Shown: positions 6,527 through 51,301 of the stretch, one piece after another
How the letters are laid out: the number at the start of each line of letters is the position of its first letter
Position numbering within the stretch: the stretch's first letter is position 1
Origin: a virus
Strand: one strand, 5' to 3'
Length of the DNA stretch: 53,592 bases
IMG/VR virus record: IMGVR_UViG_3300043420_001594
Span: 1 to 53,592 of that record
Position numbers and translations under genes: made by a program
The notes under the pieces: model-generated
Told to the model about the DNA's origin: nothing
Seen by the model: only the letters and a program-made list of their open reading frames with translations
The model's database searches: none

Positions 6527-6563
6527 CATCTTTCTTATCCCCAAATACGGGGCCGTTTTTGCA
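6527..6563 (-). promoter_or_regulatory. Promoter cassette P1
   Basis: Read on the minus strand, a GCAAAAACGG box is followed by GGGGATAAGAAAGATG. The box-to-ATAAG distance is the same in cassettes P2 and P3. The leader downstream contains TATC and TATCAAC elements and ends in AGGAG before the gene starting at 6474. Minus-35/minus-10 assignment is by analogy only. Confidence 0.65.
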
Positions 6564-25840: not shown

Positions 25841-25947
25841 TACTTTTCCGGGTCGAGCGCGTCCTCGACGGCGTCATCAAATTCGCCCAGGCTTGACATG
25901 CCGCAGCCGGGGCTCCACTCGACTATCGCCTCAACCCTGTTCTTCAT
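25840..25947 (-). CDS. Small acidic protein, 35 aa
   Basis: The ATG at 25947 has AGGAGGAG 6-7 bases upstream, a very strong site. It encodes MKNRVEAIVEWSPGCGMSSL followed by an acidic tail (GEFDDAVEDALDPEK), and its stop overlaps the zinc-ribbon start. First gene behind promoter cassette P3. Too short for family assignment. Confidence 0.6.
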   Translation of the reverse strand: MKNRVEAIVEWSPGCGMSSLGEFDDAVEDALDPEK

Positions 25948-26044: not shown

Positions 26045-29000
26045 ATGTCAGTTCTAGACCCCGAGAGAGTCATGCGGACTCTCGAAGACCGGGTGGCGGA
26101 CAGGATCAAGTCGTTCTTTCCACTGAAGGGTAAGAAGCAGACGTTGGTTGTTCGCGACGTCTATGCCGGCAAGGATGTGGACGTCGATGATATCCACGAA
26201 CAGAAGAAGGCTCGCCTACGGGGGAAGACCTGGTCGACCGGCGTGTACGGAAACATCGATCTGGTCGACAACGCTACCGGAAAGGTCGTGGACAGCGCCG
26301 ACAGCATCAAACTGCTCAGCCTGCCCAAGATCACGCGTCGGTACAGCTACATCATCGAAGGCAGTGAGTATCAGGCCGACAACCAGTGGCGGTTGAAGTC
26401 TGGCGTGTACGCCCGCGAGAAAGCCAACGGGGAACTGGAGACCCAGTTCAATCTGGCGAAGGGGCGTGGATTCCGCATGGGGTTCGACCCGCAGAAGCGG
26501 CGATTCCAGCTGTCGTACGGCACCGCCAATATCCCGCTCCTCCCAGTCCTCCAGGCCATGGGTGTGCCGGACGAGCAGATCCGTAAGTCGTGGGGCGATC
26601 AAGTCTACGCGGCCGCGGTGGCTCAGAAGTCCAAGGGCCAGCTTGTGAAGTTGGCCAGGGCGTTGGAGCCCTACAAGTCCGTGGACACTGACGCGGACGC
26701 CATTCCGATTATTCGGGATTCGTACGGTGCCACTGTCCTGAACCCCGACACCACCGCAATCACGCTCGGTAAGCCGCACGACAAAGTGACGGGCGACGCC
26801 CTCTTATCATCGGCTAATAAGTTGCTGGGGATCAGCCGGGGTGAGCAGGAGGTCGATAACCGAGACTCCCTGCGCTTCAAAGAACTGTGGTCGATTGAGG
26901 ATCACCTGCCCGAGCGCATCCAAAACTCCGCTAAGCGGATCCGTCTCAAGATGATGAACAACCTGGACCGAAAGAGTCAGGTCCGTCAGATCGTCACCAA
27001 CGACGTGTTCAACGTTCCGGTCAAGGCGTTCTTCACCAGCACGTCGCTGTCCCAGCAGACCAGCCAGGTCAACCCGATCGATATGATCGGCGGATTCCTC
27101 CGCACCACCATCATGGGCCCTGGTGGTATTTCGAACGAGAATGCGGTCGGCATGGACGCCAAGATGATCGACCCCAGCTTCCTGGGATTCGTGGATCCGG
27201 TCCACACCCCTGAGGGCGAGAAGTCGGGTGTGACGGGGCACCTGTCGCTGGGTGTCTCTAAGCGTGGTGTGGAACCGACGATTCGCGTGTGGGATACGGC
27301 GGCGAAGCAGTACACCGACAAGACTCCGACCGAATTGGCGCTCAAGAACGTGGCGTTCGCGGACCAGTACCTGTTTGCGAAGGGCAAGGAACCTCAGATC
27401 CGCGGTAAGGTCGCGACCGTCATTCCTCCGGGTGGTTCGGATCCCGTGGTGGTGGACCCTAAGGAAGTGGGCTACATCCTGCAGTCACCTAAGACCGTCT
27501 TCTCCATGACCGCCAATCTGGTGCCTTTCTTGGCGTCCGACCAGGCCAACCGCGCCGGTATGGCGACCCGTCACATGGAGCAGGCCATCTCCCTAAAGAA
27601 CCGGGAGGAACCTCTCGTCCAGACAGTCAGCGGCAACCCAAACGAGCGCTACGGTACGTGGGAGAAGATCATGGGGTCGTTGAACTCCCATGCCGCCCCC
27701 GTATCTGGGAAGGTCGAGTCCATCACGTCTGACTCCATCACGTTGGTGGACGCGGACAAGAAGAAGCACGTCGTGCAGCTGTACGACAACTTTCCGCTCA
27801 ACGACGCCAAGGCCTTCATCTCCAGTACCCCCACCATCAAGGTGGGGGACACGGTGGAGAAGGGGCAGTTGGTGGCCGACACCAACTTCACCAAGGGTGG
27901 GGCGCTCTCGATGGGCATGAATCTCCGTATCGGATTCCTACCCTACAAGGGGTTGGTGTTCGAGGACGGCATCGTGATCAGCGAGACCGGGTCCAGGAAA
28001 CTGACCAGCGAGCACCTCCATAAGTCCAGAGCCTATCTGGACAAGGAGATGTACCTGGGTCTCAAGAAGTTCCGCGCCAACTATCCGGGCGTCGTGACGG
28101 ACGAGAACGCCAAGAAATTGGACGAGGACGGCGTCATCAAGAAGGGGGAGATCGTCAACCCCGGCGACACCATCATGACGATCCTGCAGAAGTCGGATCC
28201 TTCGAGTGAGCAGCTCATGCTCAGGGGCATCCACAAGGCCTTGGTACGCCCGTGGAAGAACAAATCCGTCACATGGGACAAGCCCTACTCAGGCGTCGTG
28301 ACGGACGTGGTGCGTAACGGCAAGGAAGTGCAGGCCTTCATCAAGACTGAGGAGCCCGCCGATATTGGCGATAAACTTTCTGGCCGCCACGGCAACAAAG
28401 GTGTCATCACGGCCGTGATCCCGGACGAGGAGATGCCGAAGGACAAGGACGGCAACCCTCTCGAGATCATCGTGAACCCTTCGGGCGTTCCGGGCCGCAT
28501 CAACTTGGGGCAGGTGTTGGAGACCAGCCTCGCCAAAGTGGCGGACAAGAGGGGCGAGCCCTACGCGGTCGACAACTTTCAGCCCGTCGACGGCAAGAAG
28601 ATCATTCAGGTCAAAGGCCACTGGCGCACCATCAAGAAGGAGACGGGCGAAGTGACGCGCACGTGGGTTGACCCGCATGAGCGTGAGGTCGGTTACCACG
28701 AGCTCGTCAAACAGGAACTCCAGGCCAACAAGGTCAGCGAAACGGAAGAACTGTTTGACGGCGTGACCGGCAAGAGCCTTGGGCAGGTTCTGGTCGGCAA
28801 ACAGTACATCATCAAGCTGATGCACCAGATCGACAAGAAGTTGTCGGCCCGGTCACACGGCTACGGCAACGAGTACGACCAGAATCTCCAGCCCAAGGGC
28901 GGTGGCAAGGCGGGCGCACAGCGATTTGGTGAGCTCGGCTACTACGCCATGCTGGCGCACGGGTCCGTCCACAACCTCCGCGAAGCCGCCACTTACAAGG

Positions 29001-32000
29001 GCGACAAGCAGCAGGATGAGGTGTGGACGGCCCTACAGGCTGGTGAGCCCCTGCCCACCCCGAAACCATCGTTTGCGTACCAGAAGTTCCTAGCCTACCT
29101 GAATGCGGTGGGCGTGAACGTCGACAAAGAGGGCAACGAGCTAATCGTCAAGCCCTTCACAGATGCCCTGATCCTCGCCCAGTCCAACGGAGAACTCACC
29201 GATGCCTCCAAGGTGGTGCGTGGTAAGGACCTGAAGCCCGAGAAGGGTGGTCTGTTCGACGAGCAGGTAACGGGCGGTCCCGGTGGAAAGAACTGGTCCC
29301 ACATCGTGCTGGCGGACCGGATCCCCAATCCTCTATTCGAGAAGGCGATCGTGTCACTGCTTGGCCTGCGGGAAGCGGATTATGACGCGGTAATATCTGG
29401 AGAGAAGGGGTACACCAAGGACGGGAAGCTGGTTCCGGCCGAAGAGGCCGACAAGACCGGTCCCTCCGCCATCGTGGAGCGGCTCAAGAAGGTGAAGGTC
29501 GACGAAGAGTTGGCCTCGGCGCTGGAGGCCGTGAAGACGGCGCGACGCACAGACCTCGACCGCGCCAACAAGAAGGTCAAGTACCTGCGGGCCCTCAAGA
29601 ACACAGAGCTGTCGGCTGACTTGGCCTACACGCTCGGAAACCTGCCGGTCCTCCCCCCGGTGTTTCGCCCCGTCAGCACGATGGAGGGCGGTGACCTCAA
29701 CATCGACGGCCTCAACATGCTGTACCGGGACGTCGCCCTGCTGAACGGTAAGCTCAAGGAAGCGGAAGGTGTGTTGCCCGACGAGGCGGTCGCCTCTCTG
29801 CGCAAGGACCTGTACGACGCAGTGGACGCGCTGATGGGCACGCGCCCCGACAGCGAAGGGGGCAAGACCGAGGACGGGCAACCTAAACCGCCCGGTATCC
29901 TAACGATCCTGTCGGGACGCTCCAGCCCCAAGACCAGCTACTTTCACGACAAGCTGATGGACCGGCCGCAAGACCTGTCCATGCGCTCTGTCATCGTTCC
30001 GGACATGACGCTGGGTCTCGACGAGGTAGGCATCCCACGCAAGGGCGCGATGAAGGTGTACCGCCCCTTCGTGGTTCGTGAGCTGGTACGGATGGGATAC
30101 ACGCCGCTCCAGGCTCGGGAGGAGATGGAGAAGAAGACCGCGCTGGCCAACAGGGCGTTGGATGTGGTGGTGTCGCAACGACCCGTTCTGTTCAAGCGGG
30201 ACCCCGTCCTCCACAAGTTCGGGATCATGGCGTTTCGCCCACGTCTGCATGATGAGCTGGCCATCCACATCCACCCGCTGGTGACCGGTGGCTTTAACGC
30301 CGACTTTGACGGCGACGCCATGGCGATCTTCGTGCCGGTATCCAATGAGGCGGTGCAGGAAGCCTACAAGATGCTTCCGTCCAACAACCTCTACAACGCC
30401 GCGACCGGCAAGGTGATGTACCAGCCCTCCATGGAGAGCCAGCTCGGTCTCTACCTGATAACGCAGTTCGGTAAGGAGACGGGCAAGAAGTATGGGTCGG
30501 ACAAGCAGCTGATGGACGATGTGAGGGCCGGCAAGACCCTCATGACGGACGTGGTGACGGTCGGTGGCAAGAAGACGACGGCCGGCCGGCTCTCTTTCTA
30601 CAACACGCTGCCCGAGTCTGTCCGCGACGACTCCTACCTCACGGATCCCACGCAGGTGATGGGCGACAAAAACCTTCAGAAGGTAATGCGCAAGATCGCG
30701 ACCAAGCAGCCGGGAGAGTTCGCCAACGTGATCGACAAGATCAAGGACCTGGGCTTCAATCACTCCTACGACATCGGCTTCTCTTTCGACCTCAACGATT
30801 TCGACACCCTGCGCAACATCCGTCAGGACGCCCTCAAGAAGGCGGAGGCGGAGGTACTGAAGATCAGGGCATCCAAGATGACGCCTGCTCAGCAGGAGGC
30901 CAAGATCGTGGATGCGTACACCCAGGCCACCAAGGACATGAGCGTGGAGGCCAAGAAGGTGCTGGGTAGTAAAGGCAACAAGCTGTTCGCGATGAACCAG
31001 GCGGGCGTCAAGCCGAGTTGGGCGCAGCTCCAGCAGATGGTGCTGGCGCCCATGCTGCTCCAGAACGCCAAGGGCCGGACCATCCCGGTCCCCGTCACCA
31101 AGTCGTACGCCGAAGGGCTCGATACCTCCGGCTACTGGGTCGCCAGCTCCGGCGCCCGCAAGGGGTTGGTCGAGAAGGTGCTGCAGGTCCAGGAACCGGG
31201 CGCACTGTCCAAGCAGATCGTCAACACGGTGGTGCCGTACGTCGTCACCAATCCTGACTGCGGCACCAAGAGCGGTATCGCGTTGGGCGTGGACGACTCG
31301 GACCTGGTGGACCGGTACGTCGCCAAGGACACGGCTCTGGAGAAAGGCGGGGTCATTCCGGCCGGAACCCTCATCACCCCGTCGGTGGTGGCGAACCTGA
31401 AGGCCAACAAGATCACCAGAGTCGTGGCCCGCTCGCCCATGAAGTGCGAGTCACCGAAGGGGTTGTGTTCAAAATGCTACGGTCTGTCGGACGGTGGCCA
31501 GCCGTTGGCGGTCGGCACCAACATCGGCGTGCTGGCTGGCCAGGCCATCGGTGAGCGCGGCACTCAGCTGTCGATGAAGTCATTCCACACCGGTGGTTTG
31601 GCTGGGTCGGGGAGCAGCGTGGTGGGTGGTTTGGAACGGATCTCCGAGCTCTTGAAAATGCCGAAGATCCTGCCCAACGCCGCCACCATCTCGCACGCCA
31701 ACGGAGACGTCACCAAGATCGAGAAGAGTCCGGTAGGTGGTTGGGACGTATCAGTCGGTAATGAGACTCACTACGTTCCTGCCAGTCGCTCACTCCTGGT
31801 TCGGAAGGGCGAGAAGGTCAAGAAGGGTCAGCAACTCTCCAGCGGATCGATCGATCCGCGCGAACTGCTCGAACAAACCAACATGGAGACGGTGCAGCGC
31901 TACATCTCCGACGAGATCCACAAGGTCTACGCGGCCGAAGGTATCAAGCGTCGTAACGTCGAGGTGGTGACCAAGGCGCTGACCAATTTGGGGCGCGTAG

Positions 32001-32311
32001 AAGACCCGGGCGATAACGACCAGTTTATCCGCGGCGACTTCATCTCGCTGAACCACGCCCAGTCGCTGAACCGGGAGAAGCAGCACGCCAACCCGATTCA
32101 AGTCTCGCCGGTCCTGCGAGGAACCGAGACCTTGGCGCTCGACCAGTCTGATGACTGGATGGCCCGCATGCAGTATCGTAAGCTCAAGGAGACGCTGACC
32201 CGCGCCGCCAACGAGAATTGGAAATCCAACATTCACGGCGTCCACCCCACCCCGGCCATCGCGTACGGGGCGGAATTCGGCCGCAACACGACGGGCGAGG
32301 GTCCGTACTGA
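26045..32311 (+). CDS. Single-chain fused beta/beta-prime RNA polymerase, 2088 aa
   Basis: The ATG at 26045 has AGGAGG 6 bases upstream. Residues 1-1020 match the RpoB order: the rifampicin-region analogue LSQQTSQVNPIDMIGG at about 335-350, VDPVHTPEGEKSGV, the catalytic lysines in GDKLSGRHGNKG (K777, K785) and the C-terminal GGKAGAQRFGELGYYAMLAHG. From about 1040 the chain matches RpoC: LPVLPPVFRP, NADFDGDAM (D1420, D1422, D1424, the Mg-binding triad), the bridge helix region SSGARKGL, four Cys of the C-terminal zinc site (C1739, C1801, C1808, C1811) and the trigger loop SMKSFHTGG (M1844-H1848). No stop separates the halves. The beta-prime N-terminal zinc domain is missing: GLFDEQVTGGPGGKNWSHI runs directly on. 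No alpha, omega or sigma gene is in the window. Probably transcribes phage genes independently of, or alongside, host polymerase. Confidence 0.95.
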   Translation: MSVLDPERVMRTLEDRVADRIKSFFPLKGKKQTLVVRDVYAGKDVDVDDIHEQKKARLRGKTWSTGVYGNIDLVDNATGKVVDSADSIKLLSLPKITRRYSYIIEGSEYQADNQWRLKSGVYAREKANGELETQFNLAKGRGFRMGFDPQKRRFQLSYGTANIPLLPVLQAMGVPDEQIRKSWGDQVYAAAVAQKSKGQLVKLARALEPYKSVDTDADAIPIIRDSYGATVLNPDTTAITLGKPHDKVTGDALLSSANKLLGISRGEQEVDNRDSLRFKELWSIEDHLPERIQNSAKRIRLKMMNNLDRKSQVRQIVTNDVFNVPVKAFFTSTSLSQQTSQVNPIDMIGGFLRTTIMGPGGISNENAVGMDAKMIDPSFLGFVDPVHTPEGEKSGVTGHLSLGVSKRGVEPTIRVWDTAAKQYTDKTPTELALKNVAFADQYLFAKGKEPQIRGKVATVIPPGGSDPVVVDPKEVGYILQSPKTVFSMTANLVPFLASDQANRAGMATRHMEQAISLKNREEPLVQTVSGNPNERYGTWEKIMGSLNSHAAPVSGKVESITSDSITLVDADKKKHVVQLYDNFPLNDAKAFISSTPTIKVGDTVEKGQLVADTNFTKGGALSMGMNLRIGFLPYKGLVFEDGIVISETGSRKLTSEHLHKSRAYLDKEMYLGLKKFRANYPGVVTDENAKKLDEDGVIKKGEIVNPGDTIMTILQKSDPSSEQLMLRGIHKALVRPWKNKSVTWDKPYSGVVTDVVRNGKEVQAFIKTEEPADIGDKLSGRHGNKGVITAVIPDEEMPKDKDGNPLEIIVNPSGVPGRINLGQVLETSLAKVADKRGEPYAVDNFQPVDGKKIIQVKGHWRTIKKETGEVTRTWVDPHEREVGYHELVKQELQANKVSETEELFDGVTGKSLGQVLVGKQYIIKLMHQIDKKLSARSHGYGNEYDQNLQPKGGGKAGAQRFGELGYYAMLAHGSVHNLREAATYKGDKQQDEVWTALQAGEPLPTPKPSFAYQKFLAYLNAVGVNVDKEGNELIVKPFTDALILAQSNGELTDASKVVRGKDLKPEKGGLFDEQVTGGPGGKNWSHIVLADRIPNPLFEKAIVSLLGLREADYDAVISGEKGYTKDGKLVPAEEADKTGPSAIVERLKKVKVDEELASALEAVKTARRTDLDRANKKVKYLRALKNTELSADLAYTLGNLPVLPPVFRPVSTMEGGDLNIDGLNMLYRDVALLNGKLKEAEGVLPDEAVASLRKDLYDAVDALMGTRPDSEGGKTEDGQPKPPGILTILSGRSSPKTSYFHDKLMDRPQDLSMRSVIVPDMTLGLDEVGIPRKGAMKVYRPFVVRELVRMGYTPLQAREEMEKKTALANRALDVVVSQRPVLFKRDPVLHKFGIMAFRPRLHDELAIHIHPLVTGGFNADFDGDAMAIFVPVSNEAVQEAYKMLPSNNLYNAATGKVMYQPSMESQLGLYLITQFGKETGKKYGSDKQLMDDVRAGKTLMTDVVTVGGKKTTAGRLSFYNTLPESVRDDSYLTDPTQVMGDKNLQKVMRKIATKQPGEFANVIDKIKDLGFNHSYDIGFSFDLNDFDTLRNIRQDALKKAEAEVLKIRASKMTPAQQEAKIVDAYTQATKDMSVEAKKVLGSKGNKLFAMNQAGVKPSWAQLQQMVLAPMLLQNAKGRTIPVPVTKSYAEGLDTSGYWVASSGARKGLVEKVLQVQEPGALSKQIVNTVVPYVVTNPDCGTKSGIALGVDDSDLVDRYVAKDTALEKGGVIPAGTLITPSVVANLKANKITRVVARSPMKCESPKGLCSKCYGLSDGGQPLAVGTNIGVLAGQAIGERGTQLSMKSFHTGGLAGSGSSVVGGLERISELLKMPKILPNAATISHANGDVTKIEKSPVGGWDVSVGNETHYVPASRSLLVRKGEKVKKGQQLSSGSIDPRELLEQTNMETVQRYISDEIHKVYAAEGIKRRNVEVVTKALTNLGRVEDPGDNDQFIRGDFISLNHAQSLNREKQHANPIQVSPVLRGTETLALDQSDDWMARMQYRKLKETLTRAANENWKSNIHGVHPTPAIAYGAEFGRNTTGEGPY
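26806..26818 (+). repeat. Dispersed 13-mer site I
   Basis: ATCATCGGCTAAT inside the RNA polymerase gene. Confidence 0.5.
29382..29394 (+). repeat. Dispersed 13-mer site J (ATGA variant)
   Basis: ATGACGCGGTAAT inside the RNA polymerase gene; differs from the consensus at the third base. Confidence 0.35.
31750..31762 (+). repeat. Dispersed 13-mer site K
   Basis: ATCAGTCGGTAAT inside the RNA polymerase gene. A one-mismatch relative (TTCAGAAGGTAAT) lies at 30675-30687. Confidence 0.5.
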
Positions 32312-32321
32312 TCGGGAGTTC

Positions 32322-33440
32322 ATGCGGATCGAGCTTGCTACAGTTCAGGCCGTGAACGTGCGGGACTACACGGTCGACGTGTTGACCGAGCAGAATAGCC
32401 ATCCGTTGATCGGAGTCCCCCTCCTGACCCCGCTCAACCATCCGGACCACATGGGAGGGATCAACTTCCTCCCAGAAGTCGGGTCCAGCTGCTACATCTG
32501 TTTCCCGGACGACGGAACCTACTTTGTTCTGGGGTTCTTCATCAAGGCCGGTGTGGTGGATCCGCTGGTCAGCCCTGGCCCCAATTTCACGGCAAAACGC
32601 GAACCTCTGGAGCCGGGCGACATCTGCATGGCCACGGTGGACGGGAATCAGGTTGTGCTGCGGAGAGGTGGGCTGGTTCAGATCGGCTCCAACGGGCTCT
32701 GTCAACGGCTCTACATCCCGGGCCGCAACATCATCCGCGACTACTTCCAGCGATACCACGCCATCAGTCCGATCGGAGAGATCGACTGGGGTCACGCGCA
32801 ACTCGTCAAAGAAGAGAACCTGGCGGACGGCAACACGTCCGTGGCGGTCCGCTACAATATCCGCCGGATCCTCCAGGAGGACGTGTCGACCAAACCCTAC
32901 ACGCTGGAGATTCGTTTCGGGGTGCTGACAGAGAAGAATCTGGACAGTGATACGGACGAGAAGAACCACCTGTTCGCTAACCCCGGATTCAAGGCGCAGG
33001 AAGGTACCGGAGTATCGAATAGTGCGGAAGGAACTCTCAGCTTCACGATCTTCGACCACAACGACAACGCCAACAAAGTGGTGTACGCGTTCCAGTTGAG
33101 TCGGCAAGGCGACATGTTTCTGATGTCGGACGGACACGTCCACATGGAGGTAGCGCAGACGCTGTACGTGTACGCAGGGGATCACATCACGATCGAAACT
33201 GCGAATAACAAGAATATCGTCCTTAAGGTAGGGGGAGGTGGAAAACTCTACCTGGGTAGTGGGTCTGCCTCCGAAGACGCGATATTAGGGAACCAACTAC
33301 GCACCCAGTTAAACGCGCTTATCGATACGTTCAATAGCCACACCCACGGAACTGGCGTTGGGCCCAGCGGTGTTCCCGCCCCGCAGGCTTCCAGCATCAC
33401 TACCGCCGTCCTATCCACGCACGTCAAGGTAGCGGGGTAG
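32322..33440 (+). CDS. Baseplate spike protein, gpV/gp5-like, 372 aa
   Basis: The ATG at 32322 has GGGAG 5 bases upstream, 10 bases after the RNA polymerase stop. The N-terminal OB-like region (VQAVNVRDYTVDVLTEQNSH, GSSCYICFPDDGTYFVLGFF) and the C-terminal part (NALIDTFNSHTHGTGVGPSG, then LSTHVKVAG) fit phage baseplate assembly/spike proteins, where trimers form the membrane-piercing tip. The middle (about 120-250) is extra and beta-rich. The segment VHMEVAQTLYVYAGDHITIE looks like a spike beta-helix. This implies a contractile-type tail. Confidence 0.8.
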   Translation: MRIELATVQAVNVRDYTVDVLTEQNSHPLIGVPLLTPLNHPDHMGGINFLPEVGSSCYICFPDDGTYFVLGFFIKAGVVDPLVSPGPNFTAKREPLEPGDICMATVDGNQVVLRRGGLVQIGSNGLCQRLYIPGRNIIRDYFQRYHAISPIGEIDWGHAQLVKEENLADGNTSVAVRYNIRRILQEDVSTKPYTLEIRFGVLTEKNLDSDTDEKNHLFANPGFKAQEGTGVSNSAEGTLSFTIFDHNDNANKVVYAFQLSRQGDMFLMSDGHVHMEVAQTLYVYAGDHITIETANNKNIVLKVGGGGKLYLGSGSASEDAILGNQLRTQLNALIDTFNSHTHGTGVGPSGVPAPQASSITTAVLSTHVKVAG

Positions 33441-36751: not shown

Positions 36752-37117
36752 GTGGACGAGGCCTTGATGCAGATGTTCGAGGGCGTGGTGCAGGACTTCC
36801 GTTCAGGCGGAATTGTGGTCCAGCCTCCCGCGCAGTTTGTGGAGTCGGCCAACAAGATCCCGGGCGTGCGGGCTGAGTACCACGTCGGACCCGTGAAGGT
36901 GCAGTTTCATTTCTGGGGAGACCCAGACTTTCCGGTGAACCTGGAGGCTGGGATCAGGTCAGCCCTACGAGCCTTCCCGTCAGATTCTGTGGTGGTTGAG
37001 TACGTCCCAGAGGTCGAGAGCTGGTACACTCACGTGAACGAGCCGCCGCTCGGCACGAGCCCCGAGTTGGCCGAGCAGCTGATCAAGAAGATCTCGGGAG
37101 CCCTCCAGGATGGCTGA
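36752..37117 (+). CDS. Hypothetical protein, 121 aa
   Basis: A GTG start at 36752 has AAGGAG 5 bases upstream. The N-terminal helix (DEALMQMFEGVVQDFRSG) is followed by alternating strands (VRAEYHVGPVKVQFHFWG, SVVVEYVPEVESWYTHV) and a C-terminal helix (ELAEQLIKKISGALQDG). The small alpha/beta fold is of unknown function. Ends inside the start of the next gene. Confidence 0.6.
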   Translation: MDEALMQMFEGVVQDFRSGGIVVQPPAQFVESANKIPGVRAEYHVGPVKVQFHFWGDPDFPVNLEAGIRSALRAFPSDSVVVEYVPEVESWYTHVNEPPLGTSPELAEQLIKKISGALQDG

Positions 37118-37916
37118 GAAGAAGACCCCGTATTGGAAGCAGGTGTTGGTGGCGGCACCAGCGTTCGGGGCCAAGACCCTTGTGTCAGACCTTCCAAAGG
37201 GTACGATCGAACACGTTGTGGAGTCCAGGGTCAGCGGATCCAAGCTCCCGCTCAGCACCCTGATCCGTCAGGGCGGTATTGGGCGTGGAGGTGGGCGCGC
37301 CCTAGGTGGTGCCCTCGGGATCCTGACGGCGCCCCTCTACCTAAAGGGCCTGCAGATGGCGGGCTCTAAGGACCGCAAGGAACGACTCAAAGGCTTGGGT
37401 CTCATCGCCGGAAGTGGTGGCGTAGCCGTCGGACAAAAAGGCCTCGTAGAAGGGTTTCGGGCAGGCAGAGCCGCCGGGATGGCCGTACCCGCTGCCTTGG
37501 CGCAGGGTGGTAAGATTGGTCTGTTCCGCGCGGGATACAAAACACCCCTCTCCCTCCTGATGGCCTCCAGTCTGGTCAAAAAGAAGAAAGATCAGTCTGC
37601 CGCCAGCAAGTACCTCAAGCCCGCACTCATGGGTGGCGCGCTGGGTGGTTTGGGCAGAGGGGCTGAGAGTCTGTTGACTCAGACGGGAGCCCGCACCCTC
37701 AAATCCGCGATTCCGGCTGCCGCTGGCGGCGCTGCGTCTGGTTTGCTGGGAGGTCTGGTGCTGGGCGGTGCGGTGGATCTGGCCACCCGCATGACGTCCA
37801 AGGGCAAGGAGAAGAAATCCTCCCATCCACTGGCCTCGGTCTTGGCGCACGTCCCAGAAGACATCAGGTCCGACGTAGAGCAGTGGGCGACCGACAAGCT
37901 CTCTGAGATGGAGTAG
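37110..37916 (+). CDS. Glycine-zipper membrane-active late protein, 268 aa
   Basis: The ATG at 37110 overlaps the previous gene's end. The chain has repeated Gly/Ala-rich hydrophobic stretches (GRGGGRALGGALGILTAP, GLIAGSGGVAVGQKG, GGALGGLGRGAESLL, AAAGGAASGLLGGLVLGG) separated by basic linkers. Such glycine-zipper segments can insert in membranes. Virion proteins of this kind are often injected to form a channel or protect DNA. The C-terminal 40 residues are hydrophilic and helical. The next gene is an SNF2-type ATPase. Confidence 0.65.
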   Translation: MAEKKTPYWKQVLVAAPAFGAKTLVSDLPKGTIEHVVESRVSGSKLPLSTLIRQGGIGRGGGRALGGALGILTAPLYLKGLQMAGSKDRKERLKGLGLIAGSGGVAVGQKGLVEGFRAGRAAGMAVPAALAQGGKIGLFRAGYKTPLSLLMASSLVKKKKDQSAASKYLKPALMGGALGGLGRGAESLLTQTGARTLKSAIPAAAGGAASGLLGGLVLGGAVDLATRMTSKGKEKKSSHPLASVLAHVPEDIRSDVEQWATDKLSEME

Positions 37917-37921
37917 AGCGG

Positions 37922-39721
37922 ATGAGTCTGCTGCGCTACATCATGAAGCATGCACAGGTGACGCCTTCGGCCGCCAAGCCGGAGGACAAGCCAGCTGTCG
38001 AGCGCGGCAATAACGTCCCCACCATGAAGCCCGACTTCAAGCCGATGGCCCATCAGGAGGCCGCGGTACAAAAATTATTCGATAATAAGGGGCGGCTGAT
38101 CCTAGCCCATCAGATGGGATCCGGTAAGACGCTGACCTCGATCTACGGGTTCGAGAAGATGCGCCAGTTCGGCAAGGCCAATAAGGCGATCGTCGTGGTG
38201 CCGGCGGGTCTCCGGGAAAACTTCGCAAGAAGCGGTGTGGAAAAGGCGACCAACTCTTCGTTTCAGGTTATCGGATCGTCCGAAGAAAAGAACCGGATGA
38301 GCAACTATGTTCGTCCGGACGAGGTCGACCCCAACAAAACCTACACGATCGTCTCGTACGACCAGATGAGACGCGACCCCGTAGGTCTGATGCAGCGAAC
38401 TGGTGCCGACACCATCATTGCGGACGAGTTCCACAAGACCCGCAACGACCGGTCTCAGGTGTACCGGTCGATGATGCAGGCCCGACAATACGCCACCAAC
38501 TTCATCGGAGTCACCGCATCCCTGATCAATAACCGCCCGGATGAAGTTGCCAAGCTCCTGAACTTATCAGAGGGAGGACCTCCAGTGTCTCCCCGAGACT
38601 TCATGAACCGGTACACCCGGACGGTCGGCACCGCGGAGGGGTTCGGGGGCAGCAAGAAGCGGGTCATCGGGATCAACAATCCTGAAGAATTCGCCATGAA
38701 GGTGGTGCCACGGGTCGACTACTTCGAAACCGGAGACATTCCTGGCGCTGCAATGCCCAGAAAGGACGTCAAGAATGTGTACGTCCCGATGTCTAAGGAG
38801 CAGTACCACCTGTACAGGCTGGCGCTCAATAAGCTGGGGCCCGTGCAAGAGTACATCACCCGGCGCGATCCCAACATCACGCTGAAGGACGCGGACAAAC
38901 TGTTTACCCAGTTGACGCAAGCACGGCAGATCAGCAACTCCATCGCCATGGGTCGCAAGGACGTGTCGGTAGACCAGGCGGCTGAAAGGACTCCGAAGGT
39001 CCGCAAGGTGCTGCAGGATACGGCCCAACACCTGCAGGACCGCCCCGACAACTCCGTGGTCCTGTACAGCAACCTGATCCGCGGTGGCGTGGACGTGCTC
39101 TCGGCTGGACTCAAGAAGGCCGGTATCCCGCATGCGCTCTTTATTGGCGCGGGTACTGAGTTGGGGGACGGAAAGGTCACCAACGTCAGTCGCTCGCAGG
39201 GAGTCGAAGACTTCAAAGCCGGTAAGGTCAAGGTGATCGTGTTGTCGGGCGCCGGCGCAGAGGGGCTGGATCTCAAAAACGCCACTGCCTTCTATTCGCT
39301 TGACGGTCACTTCAATCCTGAAAGGATCATGCAGGCAGAGGCACGGGCTCGGCGTCTGGGCGGGCAGGCCCACCGTCCTCCAGAACAGCGGGTTGTTGAC
39401 GTTCGCCGATATCAGTCGGTGGTCCCGGCGTCAGAGCAACCCGGTGTATTCGGAAAGATGCTGGGTAAGAAGACCCCACAAACCACTGACGAGTGGGCCT
39501 ACAACGTTGCTGGACGAAAGTTTCAGACAGCTCGCCAGTTCTATGACGTGATGCACAAGCCCACCAAGTACATTCGCAAAGAGTACTACACCAGGCGGGA
39601 CGGGACCCGAGCGATCCGCTACACCTACGCCCAGCAAGTTAGTCAGCCGAGAGGCCTATTTAGGAAGTTGTTCGGTCCAAAGGACACAGCCACCGCACCC
39701 GTTAAGCCGCTTGTTGGGTAA
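37922..39721 (+). CDS. SNF2-type SF2 ATPase in the late operon, 599 aa
   Basis: The ATG at 37922 lies 5 bases after the preceding gene. SF2 motifs are clear: HQMGSGKT (63-70), the DEFH box (168-171), GVTASL, then the second RecA domain with NSVVLYSNLIRGGVDVL and LSGAGAEGLDLKNAT, and the closing motif MQAEARARRLG. The DEFH replaces the usual DEAH. The N-terminus MSLLRYIMKHAQVTPS has the short amphipathic motif shared by several late proteins here. SNF2 enzymes translocate on duplex DNA without unwinding. Location among structural genes suggests virion packaging or a DNA-ejection or packaging role; this is inference. Confidence 0.85.
   Translation: MSLLRYIMKHAQVTPSAAKPEDKPAVERGNNVPTMKPDFKPMAHQEAAVQKLFDNKGRLILAHQMGSGKTLTSIYGFEKMRQFGKANKAIVVVPAGLRENFARSGVEKATNSSFQVIGSSEEKNRMSNYVRPDEVDPNKTYTIVSYDQMRRDPVGLMQRTGADTIIADEFHKTRNDRSQVYRSMMQARQYATNFIGVTASLINNRPDEVAKLLNLSEGGPPVSPRDFMNRYTRTVGTAEGFGGSKKRVIGINNPEEFAMKVVPRVDYFETGDIPGAAMPRKDVKNVYVPMSKEQYHLYRLALNKLGPVQEYITRRDPNITLKDADKLFTQLTQARQISNSIAMGRKDVSVDQAAERTPKVRKVLQDTAQHLQDRPDNSVVLYSNLIRGGVDVLSAGLKKAGIPHALFIGAGTELGDGKVTNVSRSQGVEDFKAGKVKVIVLSGAGAEGLDLKNATAFYSLDGHFNPERIMQAEARARRLGGQAHRPPEQRVVDVRRYQSVVPASEQPGVFGKMLGKKTPQTTDEWAYNVAGRKFQTARQFYDVMHKPTKYIRKEYYTRRDGTRAIRYTYAQQVSQPRGLFRKLFGPKDTATAPVKPLVG
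38074..38086 (+). repeat. Dispersed 13-mer site N
   Basis: ATTATTCGATAAT inside the SNF2-type ATPase gene. Confidence 0.5.
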
Positions 39722-39729
39722 GAGGCCAC

Positions 39730-39960
39730 ATGAACGCGTACCGTAGACAGAGAATCCTAAGCAAAGTGGCTTCCCGTCGCTCAAGACACGCGTACGAGAA
39801 ATCTGCCGGATTGGCCTCTATCGCCAAATTGAGCAACCAGGAGCTGGCCGCGTTGCTGCGAAAAGCCCTCAAAAACAAGCCAGCGATCGAGAATGCCCTG
39901 GGGCAAGCCCTGAACCGGTGGCCCAAGTACCATAACATGATCATTCAAGCTCTTTCCTGA
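39730..39960 (+). CDS. Basic small late protein, 76 aa
   Basis: The ATG at 39730 has AGAGG 6 bases upstream. It is strongly basic, with Arg/Lys clusters in the first 30 residues (MNAYRRQRILSKVASRRSRH) and a helical C-terminal part (NQELAALLRKALKNKP). The N-terminus ILSKVAS fits the short hydrophobic-K-x-A motif of other late proteins. A nucleic-acid or capsid-associated peptide is plausible. No family was recognised. Confidence 0.6.
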   Translation: MNAYRRQRILSKVASRRSRHAYEKSAGLASIAKLSNQELAALLRKALKNKPAIENALGQALNRWPKYHNMIIQALS

Positions 39961-39968
39961 GGTCGGTC

Positions 39969-40451
39969 GTGCCGTTCACTAGTGAGAAGCAACGCCGCTT
40001 TATGTTTGCCGAGCACCCCCGTATCGCCAAGCGCTGGGCCCACGAGAACCCAGAAGGCGACGAGGGCCTCCCCACCTACGCGCATGGGAAGACCACATCC
40101 CCTGACCTCAAGAAGCGCTGGGAAAGGTTGAAGGCTCGTCGTAGTATCGGTAAGCCTCAGGAGGGTGAAGAAATGAAGTACAGTGACAAGGGGGTGGCCG
40201 CCCCATCCAAGGGCCAGAAGTACGCGAAGAAGAAGATGGCTGGCCTGTCGGACCTGATCAAGAAGGCGCAGCCTTCTGGCCCCGTCAATGTCCGCGAAGC
40301 CAGCAATCCCAAGATGAGCTGCATGACCTGCAAGTACTTCACTCCCCTGTCGGGCAACCGCGCGGGCCCAGGTATGTGTGGTGTGGGGTCGAGGCCCGTC
40401 CCCGTCAAAGGCACGGATGTCAGCGATTCGTATGAGTCGAAGGTGGTGTGA
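39969..40451 (+). CDS. Late protein: basic N-domain plus Cys module, 160 aa
   Basis: A GTG start at 39969 has GAGG upstream. The N-terminal domain MPFTSEKQRRFMFAEHPRIA resembles a family of short phage/bacterial proteins that begin this way, followed by KRWAHENPEG. Near residue 69 there is an internal ATG with a strong ribosome site. Then comes GLSDLIKKAQ and a C-terminal Cys module: CMTCKYF, GMCG and the final DVSDSYES. The same Cys module, with its last Cys kept, is the core of the 71-aa protein encoded at 41322. Two products from one frame are possible. Confidence 0.6.
   Translation: MPFTSEKQRRFMFAEHPRIAKRWAHENPEGDEGLPTYAHGKTTSPDLKKRWERLKARRSIGKPQEGEEMKYSDKGVAAPSKGQKYAKKKMAGLSDLIKKAQPSGPVNVREASNPKMSCMTCKYFTPLSGNRAGPGMCGVGSRPVPVKGTDVSDSYESKVV
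40159..40175 (+). promoter_or_regulatory. Strong internal ribosome site and ATG
   Basis: AGGAGGG at 40159-40165 sits 7 bases before an in-frame ATG at 40173 inside the 160-aa gene. It would give a separate 92-aa product holding the LSDLIKKAQ motif and the Cys module. It is stronger than the start of the full-length frame. Confidence 0.55.
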
Positions 40452-40452
40452 C

Positions 40453-41049
40453 ATGATGGGAAACAAGGAAAAGGCCAAGCTCTTGGCCCGTTTCGCCAAG
40501 GTTAAGGAGGCCGACGGTATGATGCCCGAGGCCGAAGATGAGGGCGAGATGGAGAACGGCAGCGTTGGCGGAGACCCCGCCGGGATGCTGTGCCAGGTTC
40601 TCGGTATGCTGTTGGCGATGCGGCAGAACTATCACTCCAGCCACTGGCAAGTCAGCGGTCCCAACTTCTATGGCGACCACCTGATGTTCAGCAAACTGTA
40701 CGAGTCTGTTAGTGACGACATCGATACTCTCGGAGAGAGGCTGGTGGCCAAGTATGGAGCCGACAAGGTTGACGGCGCCAAATTGAGCCAGACGCAGGCC
40801 CAGATTCTCATGGATCTGGCCCAACAGGCGGACCCGGTTCAGCGCGGTATCTCTTCAGAGAAGGCGTACCAGGCTCTGGTCAAGAGCGTGTACGAGGCCC
40901 TGAAGGAGATGGGTGCGCTCTCGCTCGGCTTGGACGACTTCCTGATGGCGTCAGCCAACACGCACGAGACCAATGAGTACCTACTTGGTCAACGTGCCGG
41001 CGGTACTGGCGGCGGTGTCTCGATCACAATGCTGCGAAAGGCCATGTAG
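40453..41049 (+). CDS. Dps/ferritin-like protein, 198 aa
   Basis: The ATG at 40453 (or the adjacent 40456) follows GAAGGTGG. After a 45-residue charged N-terminus (MMGNKEKAKLLARFAKVKEA), residues 50-170 match the Dps four-helix core: LLAMRQNYHSSHWQVSGPNF, then GDHLMFSKLYESVSDDIDTL and GERLVAKYG. The conserved His, Trp, Asp and Glu positions of the ferroxidase-type helix pair are recognisable. Dps proteins store iron and bind DNA, protecting it from oxidation. A phage copy between virion genes may be packaged with the genome; the N-terminus shows the amphipathic tag shared by other late proteins. Confidence 0.75.
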   Translation: MMGNKEKAKLLARFAKVKEADGMMPEAEDEGEMENGSVGGDPAGMLCQVLGMLLAMRQNYHSSHWQVSGPNFYGDHLMFSKLYESVSDDIDTLGERLVAKYGADKVDGAKLSQTQAQILMDLAQQADPVQRGISSEKAYQALVKSVYEALKEMGALSLGLDDFLMASANTHETNEYLLGQRAGGTGGGVSITMLRKAM

Positions 41050-46015: not shown

Positions 46016-47608
46016 ATGCTGAAACTGATCACACTGCCGGGCGTCAGCGATACCGGGGACATCTTGATTCAGGCGATCTTTCCGGGAGCTCCGCTTGTCA
46101 AAACGGCTTCCGCGGCCCTCCATCCGGAGATTCAAAAGTACCTGGGCGACCTGAAGTCGAAACCTGAGAAACTGTACGTGCTGGTCAACGCGCTGGGCGC
46201 GGGGGAGTGGTACGGCAGCAACATCAACGGCGACTACTTCGAGGAACGGGAACTCAACACACCGCAGGGTTCTGAGTTCGGGTTTCGCACGTTCTTGGAC
46301 TCAGGCGTCTACCGACACCACGTCAACAAGGACATTAAGAAATCGTTCGGCAAGGTGATGGTGTCGGTCTACAACCCCATCATGCACCGAGTCGAGCTGG
46401 TCATTGAGATTGACCGGGCTAAGGCTGCGCAAGAGGGCCACGGGGATCTGGTTGACCAACTGGACGCCGGCAAGAACCCGGCTGTCTCGATGGGCTGCCG
46501 GGTGGCGTTCGACGTCTGCAGTATCTGCGGAAACAAGAGCAAGACCCGCAACGATTACTGTCTGCATGCCAAGACAATGATGAATCAGGTCCTACCCGAC
46601 GGTAGAAAAGTGTATGTTCTGAACCCCAACCCCAAGTTCTTCGACATCTCCTTCGTGCTGATCGGGGCGGACCGCACCAGCTACGCAATGGCAAAGGTGG
46701 CGTCGGTGTACGGCGTATCACCGGGTAATATGTTGTCGGCGGACTTGGCGGAAGAGTACGGTTTGCGGGATCGCTCATCCGTCACCATGCTGGCGGAAAA
46801 GCTGGCCAACAAGCAGAAACTCTCCAATATGGTCAAGAACCTGCCCGCCATTTCGGCCAAGGTGATGCCCGGCATCACCGGACAGGAACCCAACCTACCT
46901 GCTGAACTGTTGGATCGGCTGGCCCAAAAGCCTCTCCCCTCCGTCACCACTACGCTGTCAGCCTCAGGGATCGTCTTGAAGCCTGCCGAATACCAGCGTA
47001 TCGTTCTGATGAAGATGGGGCAGGCCGACAAGGCCGCTCGTCTCGCGAAACTTGGGTCGGTGTTCCGCCCCAACGGGCATGCCGATCACTCGATCCGGTA
47101 CCTAGACGCTCGGCACTACGACGTGGACGTTCGGGATATGGCGATCCCCTACTTGGAGAAGAGGTCCGCCTTCGATCCCGTTCTCAGTCGTAGACTTCAG
47201 AAGGCCTCGGCATCCTCGCGCACGCATGAGCAGTTTGCAGATGACGAGTTGCTCGATAAGATCGCATCTGGGTACAACGGTTACCGGGAGCAGATGTTGG
47301 AGAACATCAGTACCCTGGTGGCCACAACAACGGGCAGGGATCCAACCCTGCTCACGGCGCTGTCTGGCGCAGACCTCGAAGGGATGTTCTTGGGCAACGG
47401 TCTGGCAAAATCAGCGGAGGTGAGCCCCCCGCAGGCCCTGCTAGGCGCGGTACCATGGGCATACCTTTACGGAGCCTTCGGTGGAGGTTCTGGGGAGGGT
47501 ACTGACAAGGCAGAGTCGTTCGTCGCTAAGCACCCGCTGTTGGCGGCGTCCATTTTGGCTGGCCTCGGGAAACTGAGTGCTGGCCTGGTGAAGGCAAAGT
47601 TGGTTTAG
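46016..47608 (+). CDS. Capsid/prohead maturation protease, 530 aa
   Basis: The ATG at 46016 has GGAGG 8 bases upstream. The N-terminal 190 residues look like a phage prohead serine protease: VLVNALGAGEWYGSNINGDY, then GVYRHHVNKD with candidate catalytic H101/H102, HRVELVIEIDRAKA, and NPAVSMGCRV with candidate S158. A Cys cluster CSICGNKSKTRNDYCLH (C168, C171, C182, H184) follows and may bind zinc. LVKTASAALHP at residue 28 is a probable self-cleavage tag. The C-terminal 300 residues are helical and may form a core or scaffold. It sits next to tagged scaffold-like proteins and the capsid gene. Confidence 0.75.
   Translation: MLKLITLPGVSDTGDILIQAIFPGAPLVKTASAALHPEIQKYLGDLKSKPEKLYVLVNALGAGEWYGSNINGDYFEERELNTPQGSEFGFRTFLDSGVYRHHVNKDIKKSFGKVMVSVYNPIMHRVELVIEIDRAKAAQEGHGDLVDQLDAGKNPAVSMGCRVAFDVCSICGNKSKTRNDYCLHAKTMMNQVLPDGRKVYVLNPNPKFFDISFVLIGADRTSYAMAKVASVYGVSPGNMLSADLAEEYGLRDRSSVTMLAEKLANKQKLSNMVKNLPAISAKVMPGITGQEPNLPAELLDRLAQKPLPSVTTTLSASGIVLKPAEYQRIVLMKMGQADKAARLAKLGSVFRPNGHADHSIRYLDARHYDVDVRDMAIPYLEKRSAFDPVLSRRLQKASASSRTHEQFADDELLDKIASGYNGYREQMLENISTLVATTTGRDPTLLTALSGADLEGMFLGNGLAKSAEVSPPQALLGAVPWAYLYGAFGGGSGEGTDKAESFVAKHPLLAASILAGLGKLSAGLVKAKLV
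46717..46729 (+). repeat. Dispersed 13-mer site Q
   Basis: ATCACCGGGTAAT inside the protease gene. Confidence 0.5.
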
Positions 47609-47715: not shown

Positions 47716-48285
47716 ATGAACGAGATTCTTGCTCAAGCGTACGGTACCCGTGAGAAGTTGGCCTCGGCCGTCGAGAAGACCGCCGAGGCGGCGCTCCTGG
47801 ACGAGCTGGTCAAGGTTGCGGAGGCTGAGGGCGTGGACCTGAACCAGCTCGACGACAATGACATCGCCGAGATCCTGGCCAGCGCCATGCAGGAGGCTGC
47901 CGCCGAGAAGACGGCGTCGGCTGAGGACGAGGGCCTGTCGGATGTCGACAGCGCCAAGCTCCAGGAGGCTGACTTCCTGGGTCGCGTGATGGCTCACGCC
48001 ATGTTCGACGAGATGGCTAGCATTCAGGACGGCGATGTCGAGAAGACGGCGTCGGCTGAGGAGCAGGAGTTCCTGCAGGCCTTCGAGTCGATGGCCGTCT
48101 ACAAGGCCAACGAGATCCTGGCCGCCGTTGGCGTCGAGGAAGCGGGCGAGCACGTCAAGACCGCGGCTCCGTACGAGGTCGAGGACGACCAGCTCGCGAC
48201 CGCCATCATCGAGCGCGCCGGCGAGCTGCTGGACGAGGCTGGTTGGGATGTCGATGCCATCGCGAGGGCGCTGGAAGGCATGTAA
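47716..48285 (+). CDS. Acidic scaffold-like protein with repeated KTAS tags, 189 aa
   Basis: The ATG at 47716 has GAGGAG 7 bases upstream. It is highly acidic and helical (LLDELVKVAEAEGVDLNQLD, DDNDIAEILASAMQEAA, DVDSAKLQEADFLGRVMAHA). Four tags are spaced along it: VEKTAEA, AEKTASAEDEG, VEKTASAEEQE and VKTAAPYEVE. The tag DNA itself is repeated almost exactly. Between the protease and the major capsid protein, acidic helical proteins with repeated cleavage tags are expected to be scaffold or core proteins. Confidence 0.7.
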   Translation: MNEILAQAYGTREKLASAVEKTAEAALLDELVKVAEAEGVDLNQLDDNDIAEILASAMQEAAAEKTASAEDEGLSDVDSAKLQEADFLGRVMAHAMFDEMASIQDGDVEKTASAEEQEFLQAFESMAVYKANEILAAVGVEEAGEHVKTAAPYEVEDDQLATAIIERAGELLDEAGWDVDAIARALEGM

Positions 48286-48419: not shown

Positions 48420-49100
48420 ATGTCATCGAGTAAACTGATCCAAAGCCTGATGGGCGCCAAGCCGGTCACCAAGACCGCGTCGGCTGAGCCCGGTCTGACG
48501 GACCCGGTCTACGTTGAGAAGTTGGCTTCCGCCGTCGACTTCATCCACGACCACTACGAGACCTTGGACATGGCCAAGGTGGCGGCGGCCAAGAGCGTCC
48601 CTGCTGCGGAAAAGATGCCGGCTAAGGAGATGGAGGTCACAAAGGCCATCACGGCTCCACCGGTTGACGACAAGATGGCCGACAAGGTCCGCGCATCTCT
48701 GGCGGAGAGCCTGAAGAATCGGCTCAAGAAGAAGGAGGCTGAGGCCTCCGTACAAGACGACGCAGTTGTCCAGTCAGTGCTGGGCAAGCTGTTGCGGATG
48801 CGTGCTGAGGTAGAGGCTCCGGCCGAAGAAAAGGCCGAGAAAGCCCCCGAGCAGCAGTCGCAAACTGAACCTGACTCCCCTGTGGAGGAGGAGACTGAGG
48901 TCAAGGCCGCCAGTTTGGCAGACTTGTCCTTGGCGGACGTACTGGAAGGTGCGCTCCGGGCCAACGAACTTGAGGAGGGCGTCTCCAGGGAACGCTCGAA
49001 GACTGCAAGTGTTCGTGGCGAAAAAGGGCCAACGGCCCGCAAAGCGGCTGTCCAGACCCTGAAGCAGGGCTTGATGGCCAAGTTCGGTAAGGAGGCGTAA
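48420..49100 (+). CDS. Second scaffold-like tagged protein, 226 aa
   Basis: The ATG at 48420 has GAGAGG 6 bases upstream, right after the hairpin. It is helical and highly charged, Lys/Glu-rich (KVAAAKSVPAAEKMPAKEME, SLAESLKNRLKKKEAEASVQ, EEKAEKAPEQQSQTEPDS). Tags VTKTASAEPGL, VKAASLADL and SKTASVRGE occur at start, middle and near the end. Likely the scaffold or core protein of the prohead, cleaved by the protease upstream. Weak composition only; no fold assigned. Confidence 0.65.
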   Translation: MSSSKLIQSLMGAKPVTKTASAEPGLTDPVYVEKLASAVDFIHDHYETLDMAKVAAAKSVPAAEKMPAKEMEVTKAITAPPVDDKMADKVRASLAESLKNRLKKKEAEASVQDDAVVQSVLGKLLRMRAEVEAPAEEKAEKAPEQQSQTEPDSPVEEETEVKAASLADLSLADVLEGALRANELEEGVSRERSKTASVRGEKGPTARKAAVQTLKQGLMAKFGKEA

Positions 49101-50092: not shown

Positions 50093-51301
50093 ATGAACCA
50101 GAATGTACCAGGAGAGGTCCTCAACGAGCTATTCTTGACGAAGCTCGACACTGAGGCCGGCAAAGAGAAGATCGCTCAGCTGGGCTCGGACTACATCCGT
50201 GACCGTCTCCGTGAGGAGTCGTTCTCGGCCAAGGTCCTGGCCAAGCGTCAGGTCTCGCGTTCGGAGCTGCAGGTCAGCGTCAACCACGACTACTTGGTCA
50301 AGATCGTTGAGATCGAGCCCCAGAGCCGTGCGATGTCGATGAGCTTCCGCGGTCAGCCGAGCGTCAAGTACTACACTGGCGATCGCTTTGAGTGCGCGTT
50401 CCACACCGTTGGTTCGCTGCGCTACGAGCAGACGGAACAGGAGCTGATGGCGTACTCGATGCCCATCACGCAGATCATCCGTCAAAACATCGTCAACGAC
50501 ATCGCTGAGGTTGAGGACCGCGTGTTCCTCGGCCACATCGAGTCGGCGTGCCAGGCGCTGCAGAAGGATGCCAACAGCATCGCTCTGACCGCGGCGTTCG
50601 CGGATGCCACGGCCTTCACGGCCCGCAACGTCGCCAAGACCTCTGGTGGCGTCAAGGAAGTGGGCAAGGCCAAGGGCATCGACGCCATCGCCAACACCGC
50701 TGCCGCCAGCGATGCTGCGGGTCTGTCGGAGAACCTGATCTTCCCCGTCCAGAAGGACGACATGATCAAGTTGTTCCAGCTCTTTACGGGCACGGGCAAC
50801 CGTGGTTCGCGTCTGCGCTGCGATCAGTTCCTCATCACCGACACCGACTTCGAGGACATCAACTCGTGGGCGCTGGCGGACATGGGCGACAAGATCGTGG
50901 GCGAGACCAGCGTCGACGGTTACAAGTACTCGACGGTGATCGGCCGCAAGTTCATCCGTACCCTGAAGACGGACATCCTCCGTCCCGGCAACATCTACGC
51001 CTTCGCGGCGCCGGAGTTCCTGGGCGGCTTCATGGTGCTGAACAAGCTGCAGTTCTACGCTGACAAGGAGCGCAACCGCGTTTCGTTCGAGGCGTGGGAG
51101 GACATCGGCATGTACATCGGCAATATCGCTGGTTGCCGCAAGCTGGAGCTGTACGCGGGTGCGGTTGAGGTGGCGGCCACCAATACCGCGACCGAGTCGG
51201 CTTACCGCGCCAAGTACCTGCCGGTGGCTGAGGATCAGCTGGGCAAGAAGAACAACCTCGTCGCCGAGGGTGGCACCTTCCCGAATATCCAGCAGTTCTA
51301 A
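50093..51301 (+). CDS. Major capsid protein, 402 aa
   Basis: The ATG at 50093 has AAGGAGG 9 bases upstream, a very strong site. The protein is balanced in composition and has an N-terminal helical stretch (LNELFLTKLDTEAGKEKIAQ), a long charged region, then a beta-rich body (KIVEIEPQSRAMSMSFRGQP, DTDFEDINSWALADMGDKIV, GNIYAFAAPEFLGGFMVLNK). Length and design fit an HK97-fold capsid protein; position after scaffold and decoration genes supports it. No KTAS tag was seen in the chain. The fold itself could not be confirmed by eye. Confidence 0.75.
   Translation: MNQNVPGEVLNELFLTKLDTEAGKEKIAQLGSDYIRDRLREESFSAKVLAKRQVSRSELQVSVNHDYLVKIVEIEPQSRAMSMSFRGQPSVKYYTGDRFECAFHTVGSLRYEQTEQELMAYSMPITQIIRQNIVNDIAEVEDRVFLGHIESACQALQKDANSIALTAAFADATAFTARNVAKTSGGVKEVGKAKGIDAIANTAAASDAAGLSENLIFPVQKDDMIKLFQLFTGTGNRGSRLRCDQFLITDTDFEDINSWALADMGDKIVGETSVDGYKYSTVIGRKFIRTLKTDILRPGNIYAFAAPEFLGGFMVLNKLQFYADKERNRVSFEAWEDIGMYIGNIAGCRKLELYAGAVEVAATNTATESAYRAKYLPVAEDQLGKKNNLVAEGGTFPNIQQF

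Follow-up and report, generated by a model that had tools for sequence, protein, structure and literature searches.

We analyzed a 53.6-kb viral sequence (IMG/VR virus record IMGVR_UViG_3300043420_001594, positions 1 to 53,592; hereafter, the window) and found that it encodes an intact SNF2-type ATPase, predicted from sequence and model to translocate along duplex DNA. The ATPase, which we refer to as SNF2, is a core gene of the late block. It is best read, by analogy, as a head-targeted, probably injected translocase of the kind known from DarB of phage P1, in this case as a bare motor from a clade that encodes its own RNA polymerase. A Dps-like gene encoded nearby is an accessory gene in a variable slot and an optional neighbor of SNF2.

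An intact SNF2-type motor

The ATPase and its diagnostic elements are the following:
37922-39721, plus strand: SNF2-type ATPase, 599 amino acids (aa), ATG start; identified by Pfam, PHROG and an AlphaFold model
37922-37954, plus strand: MSLLRYIMKHA, the putative N-terminal tag of SNF2 for capsid targeting; K9 almost invariant among 21 sequences, helix at residues 3-11 in the model
38102-38131, plus strand: motif I (Walker A, GxGKT), LAHQMGSGKT; G66, G68, K69 and T70 invariant in 21 aligned sequences
38423-38434, plus strand: motif II (DExH), DEFH; D168, E169 and H171 invariant in the 21 aligned sequences
39332-39355, plus strand: motif VI (QxxxRxxR), QAEARARR; Q471, R475 and R478 invariant in the 21 aligned sequences

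Pfam recognizes SNF2-rel_dom (PF00176) at 4.4e-19 (69 bits, with a cut-off of 24.9) and Helicase_C (PF00271) at 1.5e-9, finding helicase domains only in the 599-aa protein, and PHROG 62 matches at 1.7e-49. The AlphaFold model (mean pLDDT 84) has a remodeller-like fold whose best Foldseek matches are ISW1, CHD1, Mot1 and the RNA-polymerase-II-associated CSB. The two RecA-like lobes and motifs I, II and VI of SWI2/SNF2 proteins are thus all present, as judged from Pfam, the invariant motifs and the model with its Foldseek matches. An earlier reading of this DNA without database searches (the sequence-only reading) had recognized an SNF2 ATPase here and described it as a duplex-DNA translocase; the Pfam match, invariant motifs and model bear out the former, and the latter is upheld as a prediction from sequence and structure model.

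We considered and rejected membership of SNF2 in two better-known groups. No RapA/HepA model is among its NCBIfam matches at 0.01, RapA is unnamed in the best 60 of 66 Protein Data Bank (PDB) matches at 1e-3, and the 599 aa hold no RapA N-terminal domains. Pfam likewise joins no DNA methyltransferase domain to the motor, which sets SNF2 apart from the DarB-type polyvalent proteins. Its PADLOC matches reflect generic helicase similarity and were left unused.

Conservation and synteny of SNF2

We gathered relatives by scanning viral contigs with profiles of SNF2 and the terminase large subunit (TerL), obtaining contigs of up to 181 kb, many of them partial. SNF2 and TerL are found together in about 26 of these contigs, with SNF2 located between a Gly-rich gene and TerL. 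The gene order RNA polymerase, baseplate-like, 33988, 35952, 36752, Gly-rich, SNF2, TerL, 43489, protease, scaffold and capsid is kept (numbers denote families). A scan of genome contigs for SNF2 relatives returned a single weak partial match only.

The late block of the window extends over the plus strand between about 22 and 53 kb and includes portal-like, TerL and head-maturation-protease matches along with weak major-capsid matches. The replication genes lie on the minus strand at 9 to 22 kb and encode a DNA polymerase, a primase, a DnaB-like helicase, a UvsX/RecA-like protein and a second SF2 helicase. SNF2 and the Dps-like gene are both inside the late block, flanked by portal-like and capsid genes, so the sequence-only reading was right to place them among virion genes.

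Immediately upstream of SNF2 is the Gly-rich gene:
37110-37916, plus strand: Gly-rich (GxxxG) protein; 16 GxxxG motifs versus 6.7 expected; homologue fused to SNF2 in L003

In L003, a 6.3-kb metagenomic contig, the Gly-rich protein and SNF2 form a single 835-aa frame. The fusion, which the sequence-only reading overlooked, is a hint that the two proteins cooperate. That reading had instead proposed that glycine-zipper neighbors form a channel, an idea that finds little support and that we rejected: GxxxG is enriched in 37110-37916, yet no hydrophobic segment of transmembrane strength was found in the window copy. GxxxG is near chance in the other two Gly-rich neighbors in the window.

An N-terminal motif common to proteins of the late block

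SNF2 homologues start MSLGDYLIKKAAE, MSLYNYVIKYAAE or similar, with the consensus MSLxxYxxKxA, and a variable linker comes next. In the model of the window protein, the helix at residues 3-11 is followed by a disordered linker and then the motor. N-terminal K-x-A is found in 24 of 29 SNF2 sequences versus 6.6 expected from shuffling, although some of the 29 are closely related and the counts are not independent. The motif is also enriched in families 33988 (21/22), 44496 (13/15) and 45108 (15/25) and in scaffold 48420 (14/15), and it is not enriched in TerL (1/29), in 35952 (0/23) or in the first residues of the capsid protein (0/14). The same type of N-terminus is carried by unrelated block proteins, and it is found on the variable-slot proteins described below. 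At any protein position, the structural block of the window has 28 occurrences of K[TLVIE]A[SA] versus 3.4 expected, and the remaining window proteins have 0. Comparison of the structural block with the rest of the genome yields Fisher p-values for N-terminal K-x-A of 3e-4 and 1e-5 in two 180-kb relatives and 0.017 in the window, which are indicative only, given block boundaries drawn once part of the data was known, gene calling with a simple script and relatedness among the sequences. In the distant relative Salmonella phage Arash, the motif is repeated in proteins that its depositors call structural.

A short N-terminal tag common to unrelated virion-block proteins is therefore present, and its sequence fits a putative capsid-targeting peptide whose end would be a site for the prohead protease, as in T4, with packaging like that of P1 DarB. 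The first 30 residues of DarB are enough for packaging (PMC9024508). The T4 internal proteins (IPI-III and Alt) similarly have a short helix-like N-terminal tag common to unrelated cargo, and the window encodes its protease candidate in the same block; the window motif ends in K-x-A-(S/A/E/Q), differing from the T4 site, and its cleavage site is putative. The sequence-only reading had assigned a putative targeting N-terminus to both SNF2 and the Dps-like protein. The counts agree with this for SNF2, while the K-x-A-D at residues 18-21 of the Dps-like protein comes from two sequences only. If the interpretation is true, a simple N-terminal tag predicts packed and injected proteins across a clade of uncultured phages.

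A separate observation concerns G014 98061-101318 (loci L071-L072), where five or six adjacent genes of different size start MN[AVE]LEKYAA, including consecutive MNALEKYAAK genes, as if one tag had been placed on different cargo.

An RNA polymerase gene in the same block

The sequence-only reading also overlooked a large protein of the same block that is a more specific candidate partner for SNF2:
26045-32311, plus strand: single-chain beta-beta' RNA polymerase, 2088 aa, NADFDGD motif; PF00562 at 1e-52, PF00623 at 3e-27, NCBIfam beta/beta' fusion at 3e-174

This bacterial-type beta-beta' fusion shows 64-66% identity in 8 relatives. Its gene lies between the portal-like and baseplate-like genes, a late-block location as for virion RNA polymerases of the crAss-like, P23-45 and N4 types. 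SNF2 is present in 12 of the 14 records that carry the polymerase, and in Arash, where SNF2 is gp217 and the RNA polymerase proteins are gp206 and gp216, it adjoins an RNA polymerase gene. There are precedents for such an association: a survey of jumbo phages proposed that an RNA-polymerase-correlated SNF2 helicase is RapA-like (PMC7824862), and poxvirus NPH-I is packaged together with vRNAP (PMC12618233). NPH-I resembles the window protein in being an SNF2-family ATPase of about 600 aa from a virus that encodes a multi-subunit-type RNA polymerase of its own, and it is a weak profile match to SNF2 (8e-9). However, NPH-I belongs to a eukaryotic virus, and its physical complex with RNA polymerase contrasts with gene co-occurrence alone here. 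RapA/HepA and the SNF2 helicase of phiKZ-type jumbo phages are likewise SNF2 ATPases tied to RNA polymerase, and the jumbo-phage protein has been proposed to act in recycling as RapA does (PMC7824862), but the phage group differs and the window polymerase is a single chain.

A promoter-like motif, TGCAAAA-N15-GG[GT]ATAAG-N5-TG, occurs in 13, 10 and 3 copies versus 0.3, 0.6 and 0 in Markov shuffles. Its sites are distributed genome-wide in G004 and G014, and those of the window are at 6541, 6974, 26011 and possibly 22086, all on the minus strand. The motif mostly precedes non-structural minus-strand genes, which suggests that these are transcribed in a dedicated manner, and it may be a promoter for the phage RNA polymerase. 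Because the motif precedes non-structural genes while the polymerase gene is in the late block, the easiest explanation would be that the polymerase arrives with the virion. Alternatively, these sites could be read by a sigma factor of the host or the phage.

Behind the 26011 motif, between the portal and RNA polymerase genes, the window holds two overlapping minus-strand frames (25610-25947) of 35 aa (MKNRVEAIVEW...) and 76 aa, the latter with CxxC pairs and zinc-ribbon-like. The 26011 motif and the ribosome-binding/start region are kept in three relatives. At G016 82024-90741, the RNA polymerase is part of an open frame of 2922 aa whose matches fall into separate segments, suggesting inserted domains or inteins.

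Proposed role of SNF2 and alternative explanations

The conserved place of SNF2 in the virion block and its recurrent targeting-like N-terminus make packaging and injection plausible, and we consider it probable that the protein is packaged into heads and ejected as a DNA translocase. The course of events that we infer, from packaging and cleavage to ejection and a partnership with RNA polymerase, would begin with the N-terminal helix ending in K-x-A directing SNF2 into the prohead, and the prohead protease may trim the N-terminus. Once ejected, SNF2 would move along the incoming phage DNA and remove bound proteins. It may also aid the phage single-chain RNA polymerase in clearance or recycling, comparable to NPH-I in the packaged poxvirus transcription complex or RapA for bacterial RNA polymerase. 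The Dps-like protein would be a separate, optional ferroxidase-type cargo from the variable slot. We propose the combination of an ejected translocase with the polymerase partnership only tentatively; if it is true, packing an SNF2 ATPase next to a viral RNA polymerase has arisen by convergence in phages and poxviruses. A broader and more doubtful extension is a modular injected payload with K-x-A tags, in which a fixed SNF2 would serve a co-delivered beta-beta' RNA polymerase, as a counterpart of poxvirus vRNAP/NPH-I, and would be joined by swappable extras such as a miniferritin shielding the incoming DNA from iron/peroxide damage.

Several points weigh against these proposals, in addition to the relatedness of the SNF2 sequences noted above. 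We infer both packaging and cleavage of SNF2 from its sequence, the Arash SNF2 has no N-terminal tag, and neither NPH-I nor RapA orthology is established. The polymerase partnership in particular is challenged by the RNA polymerase having no N-terminal signal, by G015 and G018, which carry the polymerase and in which SNF2 was undetected, and by PA-SR01, which has SNF2 among its head genes and no such polymerase.

The PA-SR01 arrangement would suit a different role, in which SNF2 is a packaged anti-defence factor like P1 DarB that would move along incoming DNA and block or displace complexes of restriction or other defences, with no RNA polymerase involvement. DarB is a head-packaged SNF2-containing protein that guards P1 DNA in cis (PMC5512222; PMC9024508). 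Both are SNF2-type motors of tailed phages encoded near head genes and a prohead protease, and the short N-terminal capsid-targeting sequence shown for DarB is putative for the window protein. However, DarB is about 250 kDa with a DNA methyltransferase, which DarB-type proteins nearly always have, whereas the window SNF2 is a bare motor with no such domain and no indication of an anti-restriction role. A fixed slot with strict conservation would also be unusual for an anti-defence gene, and we regard this role as unlikely.

We think it improbable that SNF2 works in the cell that makes the virions, on head assembly or on DNA packaging next to TerL, and is never injected. The location of SNF2 directly upstream of TerL in the syntenic contigs and its late expression, as judged by position, are consistent with such a role, but a targeting-like N-terminus and a disordered linker before the motor would then be needless, and TerL and 35952 themselves have no motif. 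We give very little credence to SNF2 as a UvsW-like recombination/replication helicase that only happens to sit in the late block, despite related SNF2 genes that neighbor DNA polymerase and RecA-like genes in phage DSL-LC01, the label "DNA helicase" on related genes of many Gordonia phages and such a role being suggested by jumbo-phage reviewers for some SNF2 helicases (PMC7824862), because the replication operon already has another SF2 helicase (20163-21587) and the fixed late-block position and N-terminal motif would be left unexplained. As for the packaged translocase, Arash is a cultured distant relative, which makes parts of the proposal testable now.

The Dps-like protein occupies a variable slot

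The second gene noted by the sequence-only reading is also of the predicted type:
40453-41049, plus strand: Dps-like protein, 198 aa; PF00210, phrog_3636, PDB Dps

The Pfam Ferritin family (PF00210) matches at 1.3e-6, exceeding the gathering score, in a search that used a longer open reading frame (GTG start, from 40378); this start is less likely than 40453 because the gene of a relative begins at the equivalent of 40453. The protein also matches phrog_3636 at 3.3e-13 and PDB Dps chains at up to 1.2e-8. The HW...H...D...E ferroxidase-type pattern of Dps miniferritins is represented by H64, H76, D91 and E95, and position 80 carries Ser in the window protein and Glu in the L009 one. At what we take to be the ferroxidase ligand positions of Dps (H, H, D/E, D, E), the window protein therefore has 4/5 and L009 5/5. 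These residues come from alignment; the structure prediction that the sequence-only reading had recommended for such sites, made from two sequences only, reached a pLDDT of 41.

The Dps-like protein differs from miniferritins in an N-terminal extension of about 40 residues, absent from most compared phage Dps-like proteins, with a targeting-like start and an acidic stretch. Residues 1-20 are basic and overlap the putative signal, and acidic residues come next. The earlier suggestion that the protein condenses incoming DNA is doubtful because the basic stretch falls inside the putative signal and an acidic part follows. From its sequence, the protein more likely handles iron/peroxide than condenses DNA.

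Among these phages, only 2 of about 26 syntenic contigs, the window and the one of L002 (70% identity), have the Dps-like gene, and no further relatives were found in viral contigs. Of 21 other records searched whole, some of them fragments, 20 do not have it; the exception is a 485-kb phage that has no matching SNF2 or RNA polymerase. We thus rejected Dps as a conserved partner of SNF2. The first-minutes infection toolkit into which the sequence-only reading had joined the two is a fair hypothesis for SNF2 and a more speculative one for Dps, and the pair is not a conserved set because of this distribution.

The gap between SNF2 and TerL is variable, and several relatives have in it an unrelated protein of 420-492 aa with LEK[TV]AATAALK in its N-terminus, while others have little. 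Related proteins of this kind are at L016 11915-13177, L018 11922-13229, L039 7901-9379 and L015 2041-3423. In the closest relative, a 376-aa protein that starts MNDATRSRLIEKLAK (MNDATRSRLIEKLAKVDK) is located between the Dps group and TerL (L009 13611-14741). The variable-slot proteins of relatives have zero Pfam matches and no significant PHROG match, so kinase-like and NlpC/P60-like identities that we considered for them were set aside.

Whether the Dps-like protein is packaged is, in our judgment, evenly balanced. It would be an unusual cargo inside a capsid, and the literature searched, at the level of titles and abstracts, gave no precedent for Dps in phage virions. The case comes nearly as close to even for an ordinary cytoplasmic miniferritin that is made late, protects replicated DNA and is not a virion protein. 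Phages 7-11 and A24 have Dps-like genes among nucleotide-metabolism genes, in keeping with a cytoplasmic protein, as is an N-terminal motif known for Dps from two sequences. Other occupants of the same slot, however, have the same kind of N-terminus, and the extension missing from most compared phage Dps-like proteins also speaks against it.

Other features of the window

The remaining features are as follows:
20163-21587, replication operon (minus strand): second SF2 helicase; profile match
23771-25648, plus strand: portal-like gene; profile match
32322-33440, plus strand: baseplate-like gene; weak match
39730-39960, plus strand: 76-aa protein between SNF2 and Dps, starts MNAYRRQRILSKVAS; N-terminal K-x-A-S, no Pfam or PHROG family match
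39969-40451, plus strand: 160-aa protein; N-terminus matches phrog_1375 (unknown function), homologue in L002/L009
41688-43406, plus strand: TerL; phrog_675 at 3e-60, PF05876 at 8.5e-13
46016-47608, plus strand: head maturation protease candidate that itself has KTAS at residues 29-32; phrog_18299 at 9e-9
47716-48285, plus strand: scaffold-like acidic protein with repeated KTAS/KLAS, from the motif list; kept in relatives
48420-49100, plus strand: scaffold-like protein; N-terminal K-x-A in relatives as counted above (14/15)
50093-51301, plus strand: major capsid protein candidate; phrog_2522 at 0.0017, about 70% identity with relatives, 34% to the annotated Arash capsid protein

Rfam and tRNA searches of the window gave zero matches. 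In the contig of L002, the closest relative, a 1801-aa frame (L002 364-5769) separates the baseplate-like gene from the 33988 homologue; the window holds only a 153-aa gene there.

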